From contig NZ_CP058670.1 of assembly GCF_013414345.1 (NCBI RefSeq), positions 1,922,001-1,986,000 of the forward strand: 64,000 nucleotides of DNA, read 5' to 3'. Of the stretch, positions 53,831 to 64,000 are shown in pieces. Position 1 is the stretch's first letter, and every line of letters begins with the position of its first letter. Source of the stretch: Microcella indica (GTDB lineage Bacteria; Actinomycetota; Actinomycetes; Actinomycetales; Microbacteriaceae). The notes beneath the pieces were generated by a model, which made no database searches, was not told where the DNA came from, and worked only from the letters and a program-made list of their open reading frames with translations. A program made the translations under genes and the position numbers.

Positions 53831-55198
53831 CTACGCGGTCGCGACCGCCGTGAAGGCCGCGTCGTATGCTTCGAGCGCGGTGGCGACCTGCTCGGGGGTG
53901 ACGATGCACGGGGGCACGACGTGAATGCGGTTGTCGGCCGCGAACGGAATGACGCCGCGCGCGAGCAGCTCCTTCTTGAGAGCGCCGATCACCGCCGGTC
54001 CGACGGGCTCGCGCGTGCCCGCATCGGTCACGAGGTCGAGCGCCCAGAACACGCCGAGCCCGCGCACCTCTCCGATCATGGGGTGCTTCTCGGCGAGTGC
54101 CCGCAGGCCGGGGCCAAGGTGGTCGGCGCCGATCATGGCGGCGTTCTCGATGATGCCCTCCTCGGTCATGGCGTCGATCGAGGCCACGATGGACGCCATC
54201 GCGAGCGGGTGGCCTGAATAGGTGAGACCGCCGGGGAAGACGCGCTCGTCGAACTCCGCGGCGACCCGCGGCGACATGACGACGCCGCCCGCGGGCACGT
54301 AGCCCGAGTTGACGCCCTTCGCGAAGGCGATGAGTTCAGGTGTCGCGCGCGAGGGGTTGAGTGCCTCGCTCTGCCAGGCGAACCAGTCCCCCGTGCGGCC
54401 GAATCCCGCCATCACCTCGTCGGCGATCCACATGATGCCGAACTCGTCGGCGAGGGAGCGCACCCCCTCGAGGTAGCCGGGCGGGGGCAGCAACACGCCT
54501 GCTGTGCCCGGCACGCTCTCGAGCAGGATCGCGGCGATCGTGCCGGGCCCCTCGGCTTGGATGGTGCGGCGCAGGTGCTGCAGGGCACGCTCGGTCTCCT
54601 GCTCGGGAGTCTCGGAGTGGAACTCGCTGCGGTAGAGGAACGGGCCGAAGAAGTGCACGTGCCCGAATGCGTACTCGTTGGGCATGCGTCGCCAGTCACC
54701 GGTCGCGGCGATCGCCGCACCCGTGTTGCCGTGGTAGCTGCGGTAGGTGGAGAGCACTTTGTGGCGGCCGGTCGTGAGACGGGCCATCCTGATCGCATTC
54801 TCGATCGCGTCGGCGCCGCCGTTCGTGAAGAAGACCTTCGCGAAGCCCTCGCCCGCGCGCTCGACGATGCGCTTCGCGGCCTCGCCGCGGGCGAGGTTCG
54901 CGGTCGACGGGGCGACCGTCGCGAGCTCGGCCGCCTGGCGCTGGATCGCCTCGACGATGCGCGGGTGCGAGTGCCCGATGTTGGTGTTGACGAGCTGGCA
55001 CGAGAAGTCGAGCCACCTGGTGCCGTCGTAGTCCCAGACCTCGCAGCCTGCGGCTCCGGCGATGACGAGCGGTTGCAGGGCGGCCTGTGCGCTCCAGGAG
55101 TGGAAGACGTACTGCTTGTCGAGCGCGAGGGCGCGGGCGCCGTCGGCGGGGTCGAGGGCGGGGGCAACGGAGTGTGACCGGGTCTGCGTGTCGGTCAT
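53831..55198 (-). CDS. Class III aminotransferase (omega-amino acid:pyruvate type)
   Basis: PLP enzyme of 455 residues. It has the class III features FFTNGGADAIENAIRMAR, YRSYHGNT, WIADEVMAGFGRTG and the PLP lysine in LIAFAKGVNSGYVP. In this cluster the likely substrate is beta-alanine or beta-aminoisobutyrate, the product of pyrimidine ring breakdown, converted to malonate semialdehyde; that is inferred from neighbours. ATG at 55198. It is separated from the transporter gene by a hairpin at 55264-55292, so may have its own promoter. Confidence 0.88.
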   Translation of the reverse strand: MTDTQTRSHSVAPALDPADGARALALDKQYVFHSWSAQAALQPLVIAGAAGCEVWDYDGTRWLDFSCQLVNTNIGHSHPRIVEAIQRQAAELATVAPSTANLARGEAAKRIVERAGEGFAKVFFTNGGADAIENAIRMARLTTGRHKVLSTYRSYHGNTGAAIAATGDWRRMPNEYAFGHVHFFGPFLYRSEFHSETPEQETERALQHLRRTIQAEGPGTIAAILLESVPGTAGVLLPPPGYLEGVRSLADEFGIMWIADEVMAGFGRTGDWFAWQSEALNPSRATPELIAFAKGVNSGYVPAGGVVMSPRVAAEFDERVFPGGLTYSGHPLAMASIVASIDAMTEEGIIENAAMIGADHLGPGLRALAEKHPMIGEVRGLGVFWALDLVTDAGTREPVGPAVIGALKKELLARGVIPFAADNRIHVVPPCIVTPEQVATALEAYDAAFTAVATA

Positions 55199-55263
55199 GG
55201 CTATCGATTCCTTGATGTCGGCGGTGACGGTGGCGAGATCATTATCCTCCCGGGATGCCCGAA

Positions 55264-55292
55264 GCCGGGCCGCGCACTCGCGCGAGCCCGGC
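55264..55292 (-). terminator. Hairpin after the substrate-binding-protein gene
   Basis: GCCGGGC (55264-55270) pairs with GCCCGGC (55286-55292), continued inward by CGCGC/GCGCG with one bulge. It lies 17 bp past the substrate-binding-protein stop on the minus strand, between it and the aminotransferase start. No T-run. It may attenuate rather than fully stop transcription into the aminotransferase gene. Confidence 0.55.
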
Positions 55293-55309
55293 CTCGGACC
55301 GTGACGCGG

Positions 55310-56458
55310 CTAGTTGCCGCCCTCGAGCAGCTCGACCTCGATGGGCGTGAAGCTGTCACCCGTGAGGTCGAACCCTTCGGCCTCGAGCTCGGCGAGCGCC
55401 TGCTCGATGTACTCGTTGGTCCACGCGCTCGCCGGCGGCTCCTCGGTGATGAGGCTCGCGCCCGACTCGTTGACGGCGCTCAAGGCCGCCGCGACGGTCG
55501 CGTCGAAGGCGGCCTCATCGATATATCCGATGCCGTTCGGGGCCGGCCAGATGAGCTTGTTGGTCTCGTTCACCATCCACAGCTCGTGGCTCGGGCCCCA
55601 GCCGGAGCCCGCGTCGATCGTGATCTGCGCCGCCTCCTCGGGGCTCTCGGCCGCGAAGATCCAGCCCTTGATGACGGCCGTGAGGAAGGCGACGGTCGTC
55701 TCCTGGTACTCGGCATCGCTCTCGAGCCGCTCGGTGTCGGCCCAGATCGCGTCCTGCAGCATGGCACCCACGGTGTCCTCGTAGCTGATGACCGTGAAGT
55801 CGTCGGCCGTGTAGAGCTCACCGGTCTCGGGGTCGACCGCCTCGAGCAGCTGCGCGTACTCGTTGTAGGTCATCGCCTGGGCGGCATCTATGTCTCCCGC
55901 CAGGAAGGCGTTCATGTTGAAGTCCTGCGTGATGATCTCGACCGTGGAGGCGTCGAGGCCCTCCTCGGCCATGGCCGCGAAGATCTCCCACTCGTTGCCG
56001 AACCCCCACGAGCCGATCTTCTTGCCCTCGAAGTCGGCTACCGAGGAGATGTCGCCGTCGGCCCAGGCGACCTGGAGGGTGCCGGAGCGCTGGAAGATCT
56101 GCGCGATGTTGGTGACGTTCGCGCCGGCCTCGATCGAGCCGAGAACCTTGGGCACCCAGGCGATCGCGTAGTCGACGTCGCCGTTGGCGAGAGCGTCCTG
56201 CGGCACGATGTCACCACCCGACGGAATGATCTCGACATCGAGCCCGGCCTCCTCGAAGTAGCCCTGCTCCTGCGCGGCGAAGTAGCCCGCGAACTGGCCC
56301 TGAGGCAGCCACTGCAGCTGCAGCGTGACCGGAGTGAGCTCCTCGCCCGAGTCGGCCTCCGGGGCCTCCTCGGTCGTGGCGCAGGCGGTGAGCACGAGCG
56401 CGGCGCTGAGGCCGAGCGCGCTGGCCGTCGCGAGGCGACGGTGGCGATTGTTCATCAT
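55310..56458 (-). CDS. ABC transporter substrate-binding lipoprotein (NMT1/THI5-like)
   Basis: Periplasmic-type binding protein of 382 residues anchored by lipobox LVLTAC near residue 26. The NMT1/THI5-like core is clear: LQLQWLPQGQFAGYFAAQEQGYF, GGDIVPQDALANGDVDYAIAW and GSWGFGNEWEIFAAM. Members bind pyrimidines, riboflavin-like compounds or sulfonates. Next to dihydropyrimidinase and beta-ureidopropionase genes, a pyrimidine base or hydantoin is the most plausible ligand. Lies 83 bp after the first permease gene. Confidence 0.9.
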   Translation of the reverse strand: MMNNRHRRLATASALGLSAALVLTACATTEEAPEADSGEELTPVTLQLQWLPQGQFAGYFAAQEQGYFEEAGLDVEIIPSGGDIVPQDALANGDVDYAIAWVPKVLGSIEAGANVTNIAQIFQRSGTLQVAWADGDISSVADFEGKKIGSWGFGNEWEIFAAMAEEGLDASTVEIITQDFNMNAFLAGDIDAAQAMTYNEYAQLLEAVDPETGELYTADDFTVISYEDTVGAMLQDAIWADTERLESDAEYQETTVAFLTAVIKGWIFAAESPEEAAQITIDAGSGWGPSHELWMVNETNKLIWPAPNGIGYIDEAAFDATVAAALSAVNESGASLITEEPPASAWTNEYIEQALAELEAEGFDLTGDSFTPIEVELLEGGN

Positions 56459-56541
56459 GTGCTGTGTCCTTTCGTGTTCTCGACGGTGCTGGAGTGGTGC
56501 AGGGTCGGCCCCGACTGGGTCGGGGACCTCGTTGGGTCACG

Positions 56542-57351
56542 TCACCGTCGACGAGAGACCAGTCGTTCGAGCCCCGAGGCGACGAGCGAGAACGCCAGCC
56601 CGAGGACGATCGCGGCGACCACGTACGCCCAGGCGCGCGGATACGCGCTCGACGCGGCCGAGGTCGAGATGAGGCCGCCGAGACCGCCGCGCGGGCCACC
56701 GAAGTACTCGGCGACGAGGGCGGAGATCACGGCGAGGGAGGACGCGAGGCGGATGCCCGTGAAGGTGAAGGGCGCCGCCGTGCGCAGAGTGATCGTGCGC
56801 ATGATCTGCGCGTTGCTCGCGGCGTAGCTGCGCATGAGGTCCCGGTGCACGGGCTGCGTCTGCCGGAGCCCCCGCGCGGTGTTGAGGAACACGGGGACGA
56901 AGGCGGCGAGGGCGGCGATCAGCTGCCGGCCGGTCTGGGAATCCGCGCCGAACATCGTGTTGAGGACGGGAGCGAGCGCGACGATCGGGATGACGGCGAG
57001 CGCGGCGACGATGGGAGCGAGCATCCCGTCGAGGGATCGGCGCGTGGAGGCGAGCAGTGCCGCGACGATACCGATGACGGATCCCGCGACGAGACCGACG
57101 AGGGCGTTGAGGCCCGTGATCGCACCCGCGCTCACCATCGACGGCCAGAACTCGGCGATCTCGGCACCGATCGCGGCCGGGCTGGGCAGCAGGTACGCCT
57201 CGACGAGTCCGCTGCCCGCGATGAGCTGCCACACCGCGACGACCGTCACCCCGAGCAGGATCGGGGCAACCGCCCGCGCCGTCCCGCCGGAGCCCCACGC
57301 ATCGCCTCGGGGCCGCGCGCGAGGCGGTGAGATCGTGGTCGCCGCAGTCAT
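56542..57351 (-). CDS. ABC transporter permease (SsuC-like)
   Basis: Inner-membrane subunit of 269 residues with about six helices and the permease EAA-type loop MRSYAASNAQIMRTITLRTAAPFTFTG. It begins with a 28-residue Arg/Pro-rich cytoplasmic tail. ATG at 57351 overlaps the ATPase stop by 4 bp. The transporter has two different permease genes (this and 58169-59104), so the channel is probably a heterodimer. Confidence 0.9.
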   Translation of the reverse strand: MTAATTISPPRARPRGDAWGSGGTARAVAPILLGVTVVAVWQLIAGSGLVEAYLLPSPAAIGAEIAEFWPSMVSAGAITGLNALVGLVAGSVIGIVAALLASTRRSLDGMLAPIVAALAVIPIVALAPVLNTMFGADSQTGRQLIAALAAFVPVFLNTARGLRQTQPVHRDLMRSYAASNAQIMRTITLRTAAPFTFTGIRLASSLAVISALVAEYFGGPRGGLGGLISTSAASSAYPRAWAYVVAAIVLGLAFSLVASGLERLVSRRR

Positions 57352-58172
57352 CGGTTCTCCACGCCTCGGGCGCTCGACGTGGGCGCTCCCCCGTGCAGCG
57401 CCTCGCGCACCGCCGTGATCATCTCGAAGAACGCGCCGTCCTCGCGCAGGTCGTCTGCGCGGCTCGCGGTGCTGCCCAGCGCCATGGGCACGACTGCCGC
57501 GATGCGGCCTGGTCGAGGCGACATGACGACGACGCGGTCGCTCAGGTAGACCGCCTCGGGGATCGAGTGCGTGACGAACACCACGGCGGCACCGGTCTCG
57601 GCGCTGATGCGCAGCAGCTCCGTCTGCATGTACTCGCGCGTCATCTCGTCGAGGGCTCCGAAGGGCTCGTCCATGAGCAGCAGCTCGGGCTTCTTGGCGA
57701 GGGCGCGGGCGATCGCGACGCGCTGCTGCATGCCTCCGGAGAGCTCGTCCGGGTAGCGGTCGCCGAAGTCGTCGAGGCCGACGAGCGCGATGAGCTCAGC
57801 GACCCGCTCGCGAGTCTCGACGCTGCTCGAGCCGTGCAGCTCCAAGGGCAGGGCGATGTTCGCGGCGACCGAGCGCCAGGGCAGCAGCCCCGCCTGCTGG
57901 AACGCGATGCCGTACTTCTGGTCGACGCGTGCCTGATGGGCGCTCGTACCGAACACCTCCACTGAGCCGCTCGAGGGCGTGTCGAGGTCAGCGATGAGCC
58001 GCAGCAGGGTGCTCTTGCCGCAGCCGGAGGGGCCGATGAGCGAGACGAACTCGCCCGGCTCGACCACGAGATCGATGCCGGAGAGCGCGACGACCTGCCC
58101 AGCCGCCGCCTCGAAGACCTTGTCGACGGCCGTCACGGTCACGGCGTCGGTGGTGATCACTGACTCGGTCAT
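57348..58172 (-). CDS. ABC transporter ATP-binding protein (nitrate/sulfonate/pyrimidine type)
   Basis: ATPase subunit of 274 residues: Walker [11 protein letters not shown]-loop FQQAGLLPW, signature [16 protein letters not shown], Walker [13 protein letters not shown] and H-loop VTHSIPEAV. This is the SsuB/TauB-like importer type. It overlaps both permease genes by 4 bp (ATGA on each side), so the three are tightly co-translated. Confidence 0.93.
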
Positions 58173-59104
58173 GATGCGTCCTCTGTGCGTCGATAGTTGC
58201 GGGCGAGAGCGCCCATGAGCGCGACCGATCCGGCGGCGATGAGCCCGAGCGCGATCGCGCCGAGGATCGGCGCCCAGGCCTTGGCGGGGTCGCCGCTCGC
58301 CTGGCCGGCGTACTGGATGACGAGGCGCCCGATGCCGCCCTGCAGTCCCGTCGAGACCTCGGCCACGACGGCGCCGACGACGGCGTTCGCTGCGGCGAGA
58401 CGCAGTGCCGGCAGGAGGTACGGCACGGCGGCCGGTATGCGCAGGTAGCGCATCGTCTGCCACCAGCCGACCGAGTAGCTGCGCATGAGCTCAAGGTGCA
58501 GTCGGTCGGGCGACTGGAACCCCTTGAGGGCGCCGACAGCCACCGGGAAGAACGCGAGGTAGCTCGCGATGACGGCCACCGACATCCAGTCCTGCCACTC
58601 GAAGGCACCGATCTCGATGCGCGACCCCCAGCTCTTGACGACGGGGGCGAAGGCGATGAGCGGCACCGTCTGGCTGAGGATGATCCACGGCAGAGCGGCC
58701 GACTCGGCGAGGCGCCAGCGCTGCATGACGAGGGCGAGCAGCAGTCCGACCGTGACGCCGACGATCCACCCTGCCGCCGCGATGCCGAGCGTGAGACTTG
58801 CCGCGATCGCGACCTCGAGCCACAGCACGCGCGCGCCCTCGGCCCGCGTCACGGGCTCGAACAGGCGGCCGGCGGTCTCCCAGATGTGCGGCATGGCGAG
58901 GTCGCTCGTGCGCGGCAGCACGCGCACCTCGCCGATCACGAGGCCGTCGGCCGGCCCGAGGAACTTGTAGAGCTCCCAGAGCGCGGCGAGCGCGGCAAGC
59001 CCGAGCGCCCCGAAGCCCCACGCGCGAGCACGCGCCCGTGAGGCCGGGGGCGCCGTGCGCGTGCGTCGCGAGGGCGCACGTGCGACGGTGGCGGCCTGCA
59101 TCAT
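58169..59104 (-). CDS. ABC transporter permease, second subunit
   Basis: Membrane subunit of 311 residues with six predicted helices after a long Arg-rich cytoplasmic start (1-28). EAA-type loop ELMRSYSVGWWQTMRYLRIPAAVPYLLPALRLAAANA is present in part. ATG at 59104 overlaps the oxidoreductase stop by 4 bp (ATGA); a second ATG follows at 59101. It is longer than its partner by an insert (about 55-80) between the first two helices. Confidence 0.88.
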   Translation of the reverse strand: MMQAATVARAPSRRTRTAPPASRARARAWGFGALGLAALAALWELYKFLGPADGLVIGEVRVLPRTSDLAMPHIWETAGRLFEPVTRAEGARVLWLEVAIAASLTLGIAAAGWIVGVTVGLLLALVMQRWRLAESAALPWIILSQTVPLIAFAPVVKSWGSRIEIGAFEWQDWMSVAVIASYLAFFPVAVGALKGFQSPDRLHLELMRSYSVGWWQTMRYLRIPAAVPYLLPALRLAAANAVVGAVVAEVSTGLQGGIGRLVIQYAGQASGDPAKAWAPILGAIALGLIAAGSVALMGALARNYRRTEDAS

Positions 59105-60117
59105 ACCTTGGCCTGTTTGGAGCCGTTCACCGCCGGGATCACGTGCTCGCCGTAGACGCGCAGCGTCTCCTCCTTGTTGTCGTGCTGGAGGTAGCCCGCG
59201 AACTGGTCGACACCGAGCTCGCGCAGAGCCTCGAGCTTCTCGATGTGCTCCTTCGCGGTGCCGAGCACGCAGAAGCGGTCCACGATCTCGTCGGGCACGA
59301 AGTCGACGTGGTCGTTGCCCGCCTTGCCGTGCGAGTTGTAGTCGTAGCTCTCGCGGCCCGCGATGTAGTCGGTGAGTGCGGTGGGCACGGTCGACCCTGC
59401 CCCGTGCTTGGCGACGATGTCGGCGACGTGGTTGCCGACCATGCCGCCGAACCAGCGCACCTGGTTGCGCATGTGATCCCAGTCGTCCCCGATGTACATG
59501 GGAGCGGCCGCGCAGAACTTCACCGAGTAGGGGTCGCGGCCGGCGTTGTCGGCAGCGGTGCGCACCGACTCGATCATCCACTTCGCGATGTCGAGGTCGG
59601 CGAGCTGAAGGATGAAGCCGTCGCCGACCTCGCCCGTGAGCTTCAGCGCCAACGGCCCGTACGCCGCCACCCAGACCTCGAGCTCGCTGCCGTGGCTCCA
59701 CGGCAACTGCAGCGTCGAGCCGTTGTACTCCACGGGCCGCGAGTTGCCGAGCTCGCGGATGACGTGGATCGACTCACGCAGCTCGGCCAGCGTGGTGGGC
59801 TTGCCGTTCGTCACGCGCACGGCGGAGTCGCCTCGACCGATTCCGCACACCGTGCGATTGCCGTACATCTCGTTGAGCGTCGCGAAGACGCTCGCCGTGA
59901 CCGTCCAGTCGCGCGTCGCGGGGTTCGTGACGAACGGGCCGACCGTGATGCGGTTCGTCTCGGCCAGGATCGCCGAGTAGATCACGTAGGGCTCCTGCCA
60001 CAGGATGTGGCTGTCGAAGGTCCACACGTGACTGAACCCGTACTGCTCGGCGAGCTTGGCGAGGTGCACCGTGCGGCTGGCGGGCGGGTTGGTCTGCAGA
60101 ACAGCGCCGAAATCCAT
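59101..60117 (-). CDS. LLM-class oxidoreductase in the pyrimidine cluster
   Basis: Luciferase-like TIM-barrel protein of 338 residues: FGAVLQTNPPASRTVHLAK, FSHVWTFDSHILWQEPYVIYS, GIGRGDSAVRV (cofactor-binding region) and ALKLTGEVGDGFILQ. It resembles F420-dependent oxidoreductases that accompany hydantoinase/dihydropyrimidinase genes, not RutA. Sandwiched between dihydropyrimidinase and the importer with a 4-bp overlap to the latter, it probably acts on the imported pyrimidine-like compound, perhaps as the missing reductase. Proof is lacking. ATG at 60117 with GAGGAAGAG upstream. Confidence 0.82.
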   Translation of the reverse strand: MDFGAVLQTNPPASRTVHLAKLAEQYGFSHVWTFDSHILWQEPYVIYSAILAETNRITVGPFVTNPATRDWTVTASVFATLNEMYGNRTVCGIGRGDSAVRVTNGKPTTLAELRESIHVIRELGNSRPVEYNGSTLQLPWSHGSELEVWVAAYGPLALKLTGEVGDGFILQLADLDIAKWMIESVRTAADNAGRDPYSVKFCAAAPMYIGDDWDHMRNQVRWFGGMVGNHVADIVAKHGAGSTVPTALTDYIAGRESYDYNSHGKAGNDHVDFVPDEIVDRFCVLGTAKEHIEKLEALRELGVDQFAGYLQHDNKEETLRVYGEHVIPAVNGSKQAKV

Positions 60118-60146
60118 GGATGCTCTTCCTCTCGGTATTCCGGAAC

Positions 60147-61610
60147 TCAGACGAGGTACTGGCTCAGGCCGCGGCGCAGGTACTGCCCATGGCCGGCCCG
60201 CCCGTGGTAGGCGTCGTCCTGGATGACGACCGAGCCGCGGGAGATGACCGTGTCGACCTTCCCGTCGATCTCGAAGCCCTCCCACGCGGCGTGGTCCATG
60301 TTCATGTGGTGCTTCTTGCCCGTGGGGTTGCCGTCGTCGTCGACGTCCATGCCGATCGACGTGTGGCCGTTCGGGTCGTAGACGACGATGTCGGCGTCGG
60401 CGCCGGGAGCGATGACACCCTTCTTGCCGTAGAGGCCGAACATGCGCGCCGGCGTGGTCGAGGTGATCTCGACCCAGCGCTCGAGCGTGATCTGGCCGGT
60501 GACGACCCCCTGGTACATGAGGTCCATGCGGTGCTCGACCGAGCCGATGCCGTTGGGGATCTTCGAGAAGTTGCCGAGCCCGAGCTCCTTCTGGTCCTTC
60601 ATGCAGAACGGGCAGTGGTCGGTCGACACCATCTGGATGTCGTTGGTGCGCAACGACTGCCACATGTGGTCCTGGTGCCCCTCCGCCTTCGAGCGCAGCG
60701 GCGTCGAGCACACCCACTTGGCGCCCTCGAAGGCGCCGTACTTCTCGCTCACCGCCCCGAGCTGCTCCTCGAGCGAGAGGTAGAGGTACTGCGGGCACGT
60801 CTCGCCGAAGACGTTCTGCCCGTGGTCGCGGGCGGCGGCGAGCTGCTCGACGGCCTGCTTGGCGCTCACGTGCACGACGTAGAGGGGCGCTCCCGTGAGG
60901 TTGGCGAGCATGATGGCGCGGTGCGTCGCCTCCTCCTCCATCTGCCAGGCGCGGGCGACCCCGTGGAAGTACGGGTCGGTCTTGCCCTGCGCGAGCAGCT
61001 GCTCGACGAGCACGTCGATCGCTGGCCCGTTCTCGGCATGCATCATCGTCATGAGCCCGGTGTCGGCGGCGACCTGCATCGCGCGGAGGATCTGCGCGTC
61101 GTCGGCGTAGAAGACGCCGGGATACGCCATGAACATCTTGTAGCTCGTGATGCCCTCGTCGATGAGCTTCGGCAGGGCATCCAGAGCGTCGGCGTCGACG
61201 CCGCCCACGATCTGGTGGAACCCGTAGTCGATCGCGCAGTTGCCTGCCGCCTTCTCGTGCCAGGCCGCGAGCCCGTCGAAGACCTTCTGGCCGGCCGTCT
61301 GCACGGCGAAGTCGATGATGCTCGTGGTGCCACCCCAGGCGGCGGCGCGCGTGCCGGTCTCGAACGTGTCGATCGCCGCCGTGCCGCCGAACGGCAGCTC
61401 CATGTGCGTGTGGGCGTCGATGCCGCCGGGGATTACGTACTTGCCCGTCGCATCGATGACCGTGTCGACCGAGCCGGAAAGGTCGTGGCCGAGCAGGGTC
61501 GAGCCGGGGCTGAGGACGGCGACGATCGTCTCGCCGTCGACGAGGACGTCGGCCTGGCCGCGGCCCGTCGCGCTCACGACGGTGCCGCCGGTGATGAGTG
61601 TCGTCGTCAT
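60147..61610 (-). CDS. hydA: Dihydropyrimidinase (D-hydantoinase)
   Basis: Amidohydrolase of 487 residues that opens 5,6-dihydrouracil or hydantoin rings to N-carbamoyl-amino acids. The metal centre is complete: H67 and H69 in GGIDAHTHMELPF, carboxylated Lys158 in EGITSYKMFMAYPG, VVHVSAKQA and STDHCPF. The substrate-binding NGIGSVEHRM loop is typical of dihydropyrimidinases. ATG at 61610 overlaps the stop of the upstream amidohydrolase by 4 bp. Ends 29 bp before the oxidoreductase start. Confidence 0.95.
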   Translation of the reverse strand: MTTTLITGGTVVSATGRGQADVLVDGETIVAVLSPGSTLLGHDLSGSVDTVIDATGKYVIPGGIDAHTHMELPFGGTAAIDTFETGTRAAAWGGTTSIIDFAVQTAGQKVFDGLAAWHEKAAGNCAIDYGFHQIVGGVDADALDALPKLIDEGITSYKMFMAYPGVFYADDAQILRAMQVAADTGLMTMMHAENGPAIDVLVEQLLAQGKTDPYFHGVARAWQMEEEATHRAIMLANLTGAPLYVVHVSAKQAVEQLAAARDHGQNVFGETCPQYLYLSLEEQLGAVSEKYGAFEGAKWVCSTPLRSKAEGHQDHMWQSLRTNDIQMVSTDHCPFCMKDQKELGLGNFSKIPNGIGSVEHRMDLMYQGVVTGQITLERWVEITSTTPARMFGLYGKKGVIAPGADADIVVYDPNGHTSIGMDVDDDGNPTGKKHHMNMDHAAWEGFEIDGKVDTVISRGSVVIQDDAYHGRAGHGQYLRRGLSQYLV

Positions 61611-62455
61611 GGCTTCACCACCGCCGTGTAGGAGTCGGGCCGACGATCGCGGTAGAACTGCCAGTTGTCGCGCACCGTCTGGATGAGGTCGAGGTCGAGG
61701 TCGCGGATGAGCACCTCTTCGTGCTCGGAGGAGCCGAGGGCGCCCACGTAGTTGCCCTGCGGGTCGACGACCTGGCTCGTGCCGTAGAAGAACACGGCGT
61801 CGTCGCCGTACTCGTTGTCTTCGAGGCCGACGCGGTTGGGGGCGAGCACGTAGTACTGGTTGGCGACGGCGGCGGCGGGCTGCTCGATCTCCCACAGGCG
61901 GTTGGAGAGCCCTGGCTTGGTCGCGTTGGGGTTGAAGACCATCTCGGCGCCGTTCAGGCCGAGCTCGCGCCACCCTTCGGGGAAGTGCCGGTCGTAGCAG
62001 ATGTAGACGCCGACACGGCCGACGGCGGTGTCGAAGACGGGGTAGCCGAGGTTGCCGGGGCGGAAGTAGAACTTCTCCCAGAACTTGTCGAGGTGCGGGA
62101 TGTGGTGCTTGCGGTACGAGCCGAGGATGGTGCCGTCGGCGTCGACGACGACGGCGGTGTTGTAGTAGATGCCGGTGCCGTCCTCCTCGTAGATGGGCAG
62201 GATCATGACCATTTTCAGCTCTTTCGCGAGCGCGGCGAAGCGCTGCACGATGGGGCCGTCGGCGGGCTCGGCGTAGCGGTAGTACTTCGCATCCTGCGTG
62301 ATGCCGAAGTAGGGGCCGTAGAACAGCTCCTGGAAGCAGATGATCTGCGCTCCGTCGGCGGCCGCGTCGCGTGCGAACTGCTCGTGCTTGTCGAGCATCG
62401 ACTCCTTGTCACCCGTCCAGGTGGTCTGAGTGATGGCTGCCCGAATGGTGGTCAT
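61607..62455 (-). CDS. Beta-ureidopropionase / N-carbamoyl amidohydrolase (nitrilase superfamily)
   Basis: Enzyme of 282 residues that hydrolyses N-carbamoyl-beta-alanine to beta-alanine, ammonia and carbon dioxide. The Glu-Lys-Cys triad is E43 (FQELFYGPYF), K116 (YRKHHIPH) and C153 (YICYDRHFPE). The HHIPHLDKFWEKFYF segment is characteristic of beta-ureidopropionases and N-carbamoylputrescine amidases. First gene of the minus-strand cluster; ATG at 62455 follows AAAAGGGGAAG. Followed by hydA with a 4-bp overlap, which is the expected pathway partner. Confidence 0.9.
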   Translation of the reverse strand: MTTIRAAITQTTWTGDKESMLDKHEQFARDAAADGAQIICFQELFYGPYFGITQDAKYYRYAEPADGPIVQRFAALAKELKMVMILPIYEEDGTGIYYNTAVVVDADGTILGSYRKHHIPHLDKFWEKFYFRPGNLGYPVFDTAVGRVGVYICYDRHFPEGWRELGLNGAEMVFNPNATKPGLSNRLWEIEQPAAAVANQYYVLAPNRVGLEDNEYGDDAVFFYGTSQVVDPQGNYVGALGSSEHEEVLIRDLDLDLIQTVRDNWQFYRDRRPDSYTAVVKP

Positions 62456-62604
62456 GGGTGCTTCCCCTTTTCTTCGTCGAACTGGGGCCAGTGTGCGCCT
62501 CGAGCATTTCCGGCTCGTTTCGCCCAATGACGGATGCGTTACACGGTAGGCCGCAGGGCGCGTCTGGAGGCGGACGCGCGCAGATGAGCAGGGTCGTGCG
62601 CGGC

Positions 62605-62610
62605 TAGCGT
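62605..62610 (+). promoter_or_regulatory. Candidate leaderless-type -10 before fbiA
   Basis: TAGCGT (TAnnnT) ends 6 nt before the ATG at 62617. GGGGG lies between, too close for an ordinary Shine-Dalgarno, so a leaderless or very short-leader transcript is likely. Confidence 0.35.
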
Positions 62611-62616
62611 GGGGGC

Positions 62617-63603
62617 ATGAGGATCGTCGTGGTCGCCGGTGGTGTCGGGGGTGCGCGTTTCGTGCGCGGCGTGCGCGAGGAGGTGCAGCGCCACCGGCCG
62701 GGATCGACGGTCGACGTCATCGTCAACACGGGCGACGACTGGTGGCTGGCCGGCCTGCGCATCGCGCCCGACTTCGACTCGATGCTGTACACCCTGAGCG
62801 GGCAGAACGACGAGGAGCGCGGCTGGGGGCGGGTCGGGGAGAGCGAGCGCGTCTCGGCCGAACTGCACGCGTACGGCGTGGCGCCCGAGTGGTTCACGCT
62901 CGGTGACCTCGACCTGGGCACGCACATCGCGCGCTCGGCCTGGCTGCGGGCAGGTGCCACGCCCTCCGATGTCGCGCGGCGCCTGCAGGAGCGGTGGCCG
63001 CTCGGCGTGACGCTGCACCCCGCGACCGACGAGGAGGTCGACACGCACGTGCAGCTCGCGGGCGACTCGGCTGGTGAGGTGCGCGAGCTGCACTTCCAGG
63101 AGTGGTGGACGCGCTACCGCGCCGCCCTGCCTGCCGCGCGCTTCGTGCAGCACGGCATCGAGCGCGCGGTGCCGTCCCCCGGCGTTCTGGATGCCCTGCT
63201 CGACTGCGACACGATCCTCATCGCCCCGTCCAACCCCGTGGTGTCGATCGGCACCGTGCTCGCCGTGCCCGGCATGGTGGAGGCCCTCACGGCGGAGGCC
63301 GCGCCGATCGTGGGGGTCTCCCCGATCATCGGCGGGTCATCCGTGCGCGGCATGGCGGAGGCGTGCCTCTCGGCGATCGGGGTGCAGACGGATGCGGCCG
63401 CTGTCGCCCGCCACTACGGTCTGCGCCGGGACGGCGGTCTGCTCGACGGCTGGCTCGTGGGGCTCGAGGACGCAACGGCGGTCGACGCGCTCGAGTCTGA
63501 GGGGTTCGCGGCACGCGCCGTGCCGCTGTGGATGCGCGACCTCGACACCTCGGCGGCTCTCGCCGCCGAGGCGCTCGACCTCGCTCTGGCCTTGCGCCCC
63601 TGA
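62617..63603 (+). CDS. fbiA: 2-phospho-L-lactate / phosphoenolpyruvate transferase (F420 biosynthesis)
   Basis: CofD/FbiA enzyme that joins the phosphoenolpyruvyl- or lactyl-diphospho-guanosine donor to the deazaflavin Fo, giving (dehydro-)F420-0. The 328 residues start VVVAGGVGGARFVRGV, with VIVNTGDDWWLAGLRIAPD and APSNPVVSIGTVLAVPG, all diagnostic. Mycobacterial FbiA is the closest functional precedent. It is divergent from the pyrimidine cluster with 161 bp between them and precedes fbiC by 51 bp. Confidence 0.93.
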   Translation: MRIVVVAGGVGGARFVRGVREEVQRHRPGSTVDVIVNTGDDWWLAGLRIAPDFDSMLYTLSGQNDEERGWGRVGESERVSAELHAYGVAPEWFTLGDLDLGTHIARSAWLRAGATPSDVARRLQERWPLGVTLHPATDEEVDTHVQLAGDSAGEVRELHFQEWWTRYRAALPAARFVQHGIERAVPSPGVLDALLDCDTILIAPSNPVVSIGTVLAVPGMVEALTAEAAPIVGVSPIIGGSSVRGMAEACLSAIGVQTDAAAVARHYGLRRDGGLLDGWLVGLEDATAVDALESEGFAARAVPLWMRDLDTSAALAAEALDLALALRP

Positions 63604-63639
63604 GCCTCTTTGGCGCGAGAGGGAGCAGGTTTGCGGGCG

Positions 63640-63645
63640 TAGGCT
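63640..63645 (+). promoter_or_regulatory. Candidate -10 before fbiC
   Basis: TAGGCT (TAnnnT) lies 9 nt upstream of the GTG at 63655, with no Shine-Dalgarno in between. fbiC may thus have its own leaderless start in addition to read-through from fbiA. Confidence 0.3.
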
Positions 63646-63654
63646 GTGCGGACT

Positions 63655-64000
63655 GTGACTGCGTTCGACTTCACCCCCACGGCCTCGGCGCTGTCCCGCG
63701 CGCTCAAGCGCGCCGACTCTGGCGTGAGTCTGGATGCCACGGAGGCCGAGACGCTCCTGCACGCGCGCGGCGACGACCTCGACCGGCTCCTGACCGTCGC
63801 AAGCCGGGTGCGGGATGCCGGTCTCGAACGAGCGGGCCGCCCCGGCGTCATCACCTACTCGCGCAAAGTCTTCATCCCCCTCACCCACCTGTGCCGCGAC
63901 CGCTGCCACTACTGCGTCTTCGTGCAGACCCCGAACCAGCTGCAGGCGCAGGGGAAGGCGCCGTTCCTCTCCCCCGACGAGGTGCTCGAGATCGCTCGGC
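63655..64000 (+). CDS. fbiC: 7,8-didemethyl-8-hydroxy-5-deazariboflavin (Fo) synthase FbiC, N-terminus only
   Basis: Radical SAM enzyme making the Fo chromophore of F420. About 115 residues are visible and run off the right edge. The CofG-type start [22 protein letters not shown] with the C-x3-C-x2-C iron-sulfur motif is intact. In actinobacteria CofG and CofH are fused in a protein of about 850 residues, which I assume here. GTG at 63655 was chosen as the first codon in frame after fbiA. Confidence 0.9.

Follow-up and report, generated by a model that had tools for sequence, protein, structure and literature searches.

A candidate F420H2-dependent pyrimidine reductase in a probable uracil/thymine catabolic gene cluster of Microcella indica

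The window analysed here is a 64,000-nucleotide stretch of the Microcella indica genome (contig NZ_CP058670.1, positions 1,922,001 to 1,986,000). Near its end lies a minus-strand gene cluster that encodes, in order, a beta-ureidopropionase-like carbon-nitrogen (CN) hydrolase, a dihydropyrimidinase/D-hydantoinase (DHPase), an oxidoreductase of the luciferase-like monooxygenase (LLM) class, an ATP-binding cassette (ABC) importer (59104-55310) and an omega-aminotransferase, with the F420 biosynthesis genes cofD and fbiC divergent and upstream (Table 1). By homology, the joint presence of DHPase, ureidopropionase and aminotransferase places the cluster in the Pyd pathway of reductive pyrimidine breakdown. 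The usual enzyme of step 1, dihydropyrimidine dehydrogenase (DPD), is missing. For the LLM protein, which is the subject of this paper, an initial annotation of the window had proposed F420H2-dependent reduction of uracil or thymine as that first step.

Results

Organization of the Gene Cluster

Every cluster gene named in the initial annotation was found as an open frame, in the order and on the strand given there. The genes cofD (fbiA) and fbiC follow one another directly upstream on the opposite strand, as had been claimed, and fbiC runs past the end of the window to genome position 1988294. The stop codon of the ureidopropionase gene overlaps the start of the DHPase gene (ATGA), and the stop of the LLM gene overlaps the start of a permease gene (ATGATG). 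Because both pairs of genes overlap by a few bases, translational coupling is plausible, including the coupling of LLM to the importer that had been suggested.

Among solved proteins, the CN hydrolase is closest to N-carbamoylputrescine amidohydrolase (5h8i), followed by 2vhh (CG3027-PA) and the beta-ureidopropionases 8pt4 and 6ftq, and the DHPase is closest to D-hydantoinases and to dihydropyrimidinase 3sfw. The formylaminopyrimidine-binding protein 3ix1 is the second-closest solved protein to the binding lipoprotein of the importer (E 2.5e-12), and the aminotransferase is most similar to taurine:2-oxoglutarate aminotransferase 6jix.

Table 1. Genes of the catabolic cluster and the adjoining F420 biosynthesis genes (window coordinates)
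Feature	Position	Strand	Family evidence
Beta-ureidopropionase-like CN hydrolase, 282 residues	61607..62455	-	PF00795, 216.8 bits
Dihydropyrimidinase/D-hydantoinase (DHPase), 487 residues	60147..61610	-	TIGR02033, 513 bits (cut-off 393)
LLM oxidoreductase, proposed F420H2-dependent pyrimidine reductase, 338 residues	59101..60117	-	TIGR03842, 579.5 bits (cut-off 295.45)
ABC importer permease A	58169..59104	-	PF00528; start overlaps LLM stop
ABC importer ATPase	57348..58172	-	PF00005
ABC importer permease B	56542..57351	-	PF00528
NMT1/THI5-type substrate-binding lipoprotein	55310..56458	-	PF09084, 132.8 bits
Class-III (omega) aminotransferase, 455 residues	53831..55198	-	NF004718, 719 bits (cut-off 472)
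cofD/fbiA, F420 biosynthesis	62617..63603	+	TIGR01819, 303.5 bits (cut-off 257)
fbiC (CofGH), F420 biosynthesis, start only (~63646)	63646..64000, leaves window	+	NF006687, 1463 bits (cut-off 1018; L121:647-3295)

Sequence and Predicted Fold of the LLM Protein

The LLM protein is a full-length member of TIGR03842 (F420_CPS_4043), matching the profile from position 1 to position 329 of 329. This family is typed as a hypothetical equivalog, an LLM class F420-dependent oxidoreductase, and its name gives no reaction; the role of the window protein is proposed here. The closest solved relatives are the F420-dependent methylenetetrahydromethanopterin reductases (Mer; 8qpm, E 1.7e-33), with which the LLM protein would share fold and cofactor class but not substrate. 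Identity to Mer is 22-30% in Foldseek alignments, and the scores of 139.9 and 136.5 bits fall short of the Mer cut-offs of 276 and 348.7 bits, the latter for TIGR03555.

An AlphaFold2 model built from 32 sequences has a mean predicted local distance difference test (pLDDT) score of 81.7, with values below 50 for residues 36-40, 96-105 and 264-266. Foldseek searches with this model return Mer with F420 first, and then F420-dependent alcohol, hydroxymycolic-acid and sugar dehydrogenases; ranks 1-14 are all F420 enzymes, and the first flavin mononucleotide (FMN) monooxygenase appears at rank 15. By sequence and modelled fold, the LLM protein is closer to the F420 than to the FMN members of the LLM enzymes and is predicted to be an F420 enzyme. 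An alignment of 139 LLM sequences shows conservation of 98.5% or more at 80 residues.

The LLM gene of one family genome is split over two frames (G079:C1:2193491-2194476; profile 1-66 and 64-329), owing either to a disrupted gene or to faulty assembly. This genome carries cofE and the putative F420-0 transporter described below and is counted as LLM-positive.

The Missing Dihydropyrimidine Dehydrogenase

The M. indica genome is a single contig of 2,585,348 bases that is rated 100% complete. The active site of known DPDs sits in the PF01180 (DHO_dh) domain, and a search of this genome with PF01180 gave a single match, the quinone-dependent biosynthetic PyrD; no PydA/PreA-type DPD was found by that search in the one-contig genome. 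A genome-wide check for pydA/preA had been called for when the gap in the cluster was first noticed, and its outcome extends the gap to the genome as a whole. A DPD encoded elsewhere in the genome is thereby rejected.

Comparisons were made across 150 family genomes, 72 of them with LLM, and across a phylum sample of 296 genomes, 62 of them with LLM; the labels Microbacteriaceae and Actinomycetota for these sets derive from named matches among the relatives, the nearest of which are Microcella and other Microbacteriaceae. None of 141 LLM loci contains a match to PreA or PreT of E. coli. PreA exceeds its cut-off in two of the 296 phylum genomes, neither of which carries LLM. Exactly one PF01180 match is found in 59 of the 72 LLM-positive family genomes, two to four matches are found in 12, and none in one, an assembly of 290 contigs that is 77% complete.

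RutA (TIGR03612, cut-off 498.3 bits) is absent from the 24 NCBIfam families that match the LLM protein at E 0.001. According to an NCBIfam scan, the six TIGR03842 matches in the M. indica genome comprise this LLM protein, the F420 glucose-6-phosphate dehydrogenase and other LLM groups. Among the five other matches one lists RutA, at 69.6 bits and so below the cut-off; no genome-wide search with the RutA model was made. RutA is rejected as a candidate: the LLM protein gives no match to it, and the five other TIGR03842 proteins fall to other families in the NCBIfam scan.

Lineage Dependence on F420

The M. indica genome encodes fbiC, cofD, cofE and an F420 glucose-6-phosphate dehydrogenase. In the 150 family genomes the distribution of LLM (72) is nested within that of cofE (84): both genes are present in 72, LLM alone in none, cofE alone in 12, and neither in 66. 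With one genome per genus, the corresponding counts are 42, 0, 6 and 37. The probabilities of these associations, which ignore phylogeny, are P = 2.5e-30 for cofE and 4e-34 for fbiC or transporter. In the phylum sample cofE is present in 59 of the 62 LLM-positive genomes and in 104 of the 234 others. The nesting shows that the lineages carrying LLM depend on F420, and is no proof for the LLM protein alone.

The source of the cofactor seems to vary. At a threshold of at least 147 bits, fbiC was counted in 33 of the 150 family genomes, of which 10 also exceed the curated cut-off (374 bits); G041, G070 and G135 (19-31 bits) were excluded. The putative F420-0 importer (TIGR03869) was counted in 47, of which 44 are over the cut-off and three score 407-421 bits; the next best score is 332. 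Among the 72 LLM-positive genomes, 30 carry fbiC at the 147-bit threshold, 10 of them above the curated cut-off, and the other 42 carry the importer (40 over the cut-off, two at 407-409 bits). From this gene content, roughly half of the family members that use F420 would appear to import a precursor. Fourteen LLM-positive genomes have no cofD, as might be expected of an FMN enzyme independent of F420; that explanation is rejected, since all 14 have cofE and a TIGR03869 importer over the cut-off.

At the thresholds used, fbiC and the TIGR03869 transporter never occur together in the 150 genomes, and no transporter genome is without cofE. Several transporter genomes, for example G025, keep cofD without fbiC, an arrangement that would be consistent with FO, instead of F420-0, as the compound imported.

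Linkage of LLM to Pyrimidine Catabolism

Two sets of close-relative loci were compiled, which may share species: the best 80 of 570 confirmed relatives from a scan of genome contigs and, from the 72 LLM-positive family genomes, the top 30 loci by score, each spanning about 4 kb. In every one of these loci (80 of 80 and 30 of 30, together 110 of 110) the gene immediately upstream of LLM encodes DHPase. The adjacency of the two genes is not chance. Recurrence of this linkage, part of the LLM-hydA-fbi linkage that had been singled out as a check on the proposal, is seen among close relatives and, as described below, outside the family and in a second phylum. In the best 80 of 570, some of which are cut by contig ends, the ureidopropionase is present in 78, the aminotransferase in 67, the binding protein of the importer in 61 and cofD in 31. 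Neighbouring genes were clustered and annotated by scanning one representative of each cluster. Of the 73 loci that exceed 12 kb, 30 contain a member of the cluster represented by a coenzyme A-acylating methylmalonate-semialdehyde dehydrogenase (MMSDH; TIGR01722, 668 bits), and 44 contain a member of a cluster that has a MocR-type regulator as its representative.

In the phylum sample up to 20 kb around LLM was taken for 58 of the 62 positive genomes; those left out are the window's genome, G079 and G142, which belong to its own family, and G247, where the match is at a contig end. A first look at 30 phylum loci of about 4 kb had found DHPase in only 4, and the larger stretches changed the picture. 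Within 10 kb, DHPase or ureidopropionase is present in 52 of the 58 loci from other families, and both are present in 42. Aminotransferase is found in 38 and MMSDH in 14. The ureidopropionase is of the CN hydrolase type in 31 loci and of an unrelated zinc type in 21, and the two types never occur together. An NCS1-type symporter is present in 28 of the 58 (one of these being a short fragment at an end), and is missing from every close-relative locus that was searched alongside. Because the types of ureidopropionase and importer have been swapped among loci, LLM goes with the pathway rather than with a single inherited block of genes; descent of such a block is judged an unlikely origin of the linkage. 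As controls, 20 regions at fixed coordinates were drawn from 20 LLM-positive genomes (14 of the 58 and six of the family): none carries DHPase or a ureidopropionase of either type, two carry an aminotransferase and one carries MMSDH.

Plasmid Islands in Alphaproteobacteria

A Leisingera plasmid island, inspected in two of the ten Leisingera records among the matches listed, combines catabolism and cofactor synthesis. One side encodes an NCS1 nucleobase symporter, a DHPase, a zinc hydrolase, an omega-aminotransferase, and transhydrogenase alpha and beta subunits. The divergent side carries cofG, cofH, cofD, cofC, cofE, npdG (F420:NADPH reductase) and LLM. The aminotransferase is of the AptA type (749.9 bits, cut-off 500). 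The DHPase scores 615 bits as a dihydropyrimidinase (cut-off 393) and 233 bits as an allantoinase, short of the cut-off of 358. The zinc hydrolase passes the allantoate amidohydrolase model (695.7 bits, cut-off 452) and that of the broader hydantoinase/carbamoylase family. The gene content of the island suggests that electrons may flow from NADH to NADPH, to F420H2 and on to the substrate, that is, in the reductive direction.

An F420 operon with npdG stands beside LLM on plasmids of Leisingera (L119, L238, L239) and Paracoccus (L118). On the Leisingera plasmids this operon directly adjoins the nucleobase catabolism genes.

Discussion

It is probable, judging from gene content and homology, that the cluster directs a reductive catabolism of uracil and thymine in which DPD is replaced by a non-homologous, F420H2-dependent LLM protein. 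A pyrimidine base would be imported, and the TIGR03842 protein would then reduce its C5=C6 bond with a hydride from F420H2. DHPase would open the ring of the reduced pyrimidine, the ureidopropionase would strip the carbamoyl group, and the omega-aminotransferase, assigned by homology, would remove the amino group of beta-alanine or beta-aminoisobutyrate. MMSDH, which is part of the cluster in some of the relatives, would complete the route. The absence of pydA/preA, the recurring linkage, the nesting within cofE, the F420-like sequence and fold and the Leisingera island all favor the first step as initially proposed. Because the reaction itself is one that we infer, that proposal is supported in part. 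What doubt there is falls mostly on the exact substrate, which may be uracil and thymine or another cyclic ureide.

Several observations weigh against this assignment. The copy number of PF01180 is alike in LLM-positive and LLM-negative family genomes (exactly one match in 59 of 72 and in 61 of 78, respectively), and DPD is therefore simply rare in the group, with no anti-correlation with LLM. Among the 12 LLM-positive genomes that have at least two matches, G080 and G069 carry a second copy with a strong score (198.8 and 180.9 bits, respectively). Three LLM-positive phylum genomes, in assemblies of 220-580 contigs, have no cofE, and 12 cofE-positive family genomes have no LLM; since F420 genomes carry other F420 enzymes, nesting within cofE is a necessary finding and not a specific one. 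Neither DHPase nor ureidopropionase is found in six of the 58 phylum loci, five of which are no more than 3 kb from the end of a contig. Locus L201 (G194), with 9.8 kb on both sides, has MMSDH only, and no DHPase within about 10 kb. Paracoccus alcaliphilus has the F420 operon, LLM and an ABC importer, with no DHPase within 12 kb. Finally, the putative F420/FMN reductase of the uracil moiety of mureidomycin is described as having given no activity in vitro (PMC10714638).

The affinities of several partner proteins also count against uracil and thymine as substrates, and would suit a hydantoinase-carbamoylase route in which the same F420-dependent LLM protein reduces some other unsaturated cyclic ureide, such as a modified pyrimidine, an unsaturated hydantoin or an imidazolone. 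The window DHPase is nearest to D-hydantoinases and the window ureidopropionase to N-carbamoylputrescine amidohydrolase. For the Leisingera zinc hydrolase the best model bears the name allantoate amidohydrolase. The NCS1 symporter has the Mhp1 hydantoin permease as its closest solved relative, with allantoin permease as the next NCBIfam model (275 bits, below its cut-off of 620); the symporter and hydrolase thus speak for a hydantoin or other ureide as a possible substrate. Hydantoins would yield alpha-amino acids, however, whereas the omega-aminotransferase and MMSDH suit beta-alanine and beta-aminoisobutyrate. Moreover, the Leisingera DHPase passes as a dihydropyrimidinase and fails as an allantoinase, and the annotated neighbour-cluster representatives, which cover part of the neighbours, include no recognisable hydantoin racemase. 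On balance, a substrate of this other kind is unlikely.

It is quite improbable that the LLM protein works at a late step, reducing malonate or methylmalonate semialdehyde with F420 in a cell fed with dihydropyrimidines. Some Pyd pathways are described as ending with a semialdehyde reductase, PydE (PMC7332683), and the LLM fold includes an F420 alcohol dehydrogenase (1rhc). Yet MMSDH can serve that step in 30 of 73 close and 14 of 58 phylum loci, the LLM gene stays by DHPase in all of the best 80 even where the aminotransferase is not found, and step 1 would be left without an enzyme. RutA provides an example of an LLM-class protein that acts on uracil, and an FMN-dependent monooxygenase of that kind could open the ring oxidatively. 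This is very improbable here: no RutA family appears among the NCBIfam matches of the LLM protein, the best of which are F420 reductases, its presence is nested within F420 availability, and a ring-opening oxygenase would presumably leave DHPase without a role. No model specific to the Rut, URC or oxidative uracil routes was run and the activity of the LLM protein is deduced, so that it might be a passenger while an unrecognised enzyme elsewhere performs step 1; this is hardly credible, given that the linkage has been kept through non-orthologous swaps of ureidopropionase and importer, in two phyla.

The preferred route, F420H2-dependent reduction of uracil and thymine, has the DHPase, ureidopropionase, aminotransferase, semialdehyde dehydrogenase and overall logic of the Pyd pathway with PydA/PreTA. 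It differs in that an unrelated LLM fold with F420 is predicted where an FMN/iron-sulfur protein is fed by NAD(P)H or ferredoxin; the known Pyd variants described have a PydA-type protein with one of these donors (PMC7332683). A comparable substitution has been put forward, on bioinformatic grounds only, for uric-acid clusters of Chloroflexota, in which an F420 LLM is proposed as a "yanthine reductase" (PMC12507026). There too an F420 LLM would stand in for a PydA-like reductase in a reductive route for a nitrogen heterocycle, although the route is one of purines with SsnA, in another phylum and with another substrate. Genetic and nuclear magnetic resonance evidence has been described for a part of SSGG-03002/NpsU, a putative F420/FMN oxidoreductase, in reduction of the uracil C5=C6 bond in mureidomycin/napsamycin (PMC10714638). 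That protein serves antibiotic tailoring and not catabolism, and is compared here by its described role.

Searches of the open-licence PubMed Central literature turned up no account of a catabolic uracil reductase that uses F420. If the assignment is correct, the LLM protein represents a new class of DPD unrelated to PydA, the large orphan family TIGR03842 gains a reaction, and F420 gains a role in nutrient recycling. Exchange of F420 precursors between bacteria would also be tied to the recycling of nitrogen from nucleobases. A 2021 review of F420, in which no term starting with "uracil" occurs, counts the purpose of the cofactor in Proteobacteria among the unanswered questions (PMC8498797); the Leisingera island suggests a direct and testable answer to why these bacteria make the cofactor. 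There is perhaps an even chance that an F420H2-dependent uracil/thymine reductase is a common way into pyrimidine catabolism in Actinomycetota, that it reached the Alphaproteobacteria in a plasmid island with its own F420 synthesis, and that it partly explains why many Microbacteriaceae, having lost F420 synthesis, import a precursor.

Other Observations

Family scans of open frames in several loci (L004 on the minus strand, two in L121, L128, L079:1423-2064, L106, L050, and two in L120) gave nothing informative. In one genus with large genomes, probably Streptomyces (L195, L197-L200), each cluster contains two CN hydrolases of the ureidopropionase type with an aminotransferase between them.

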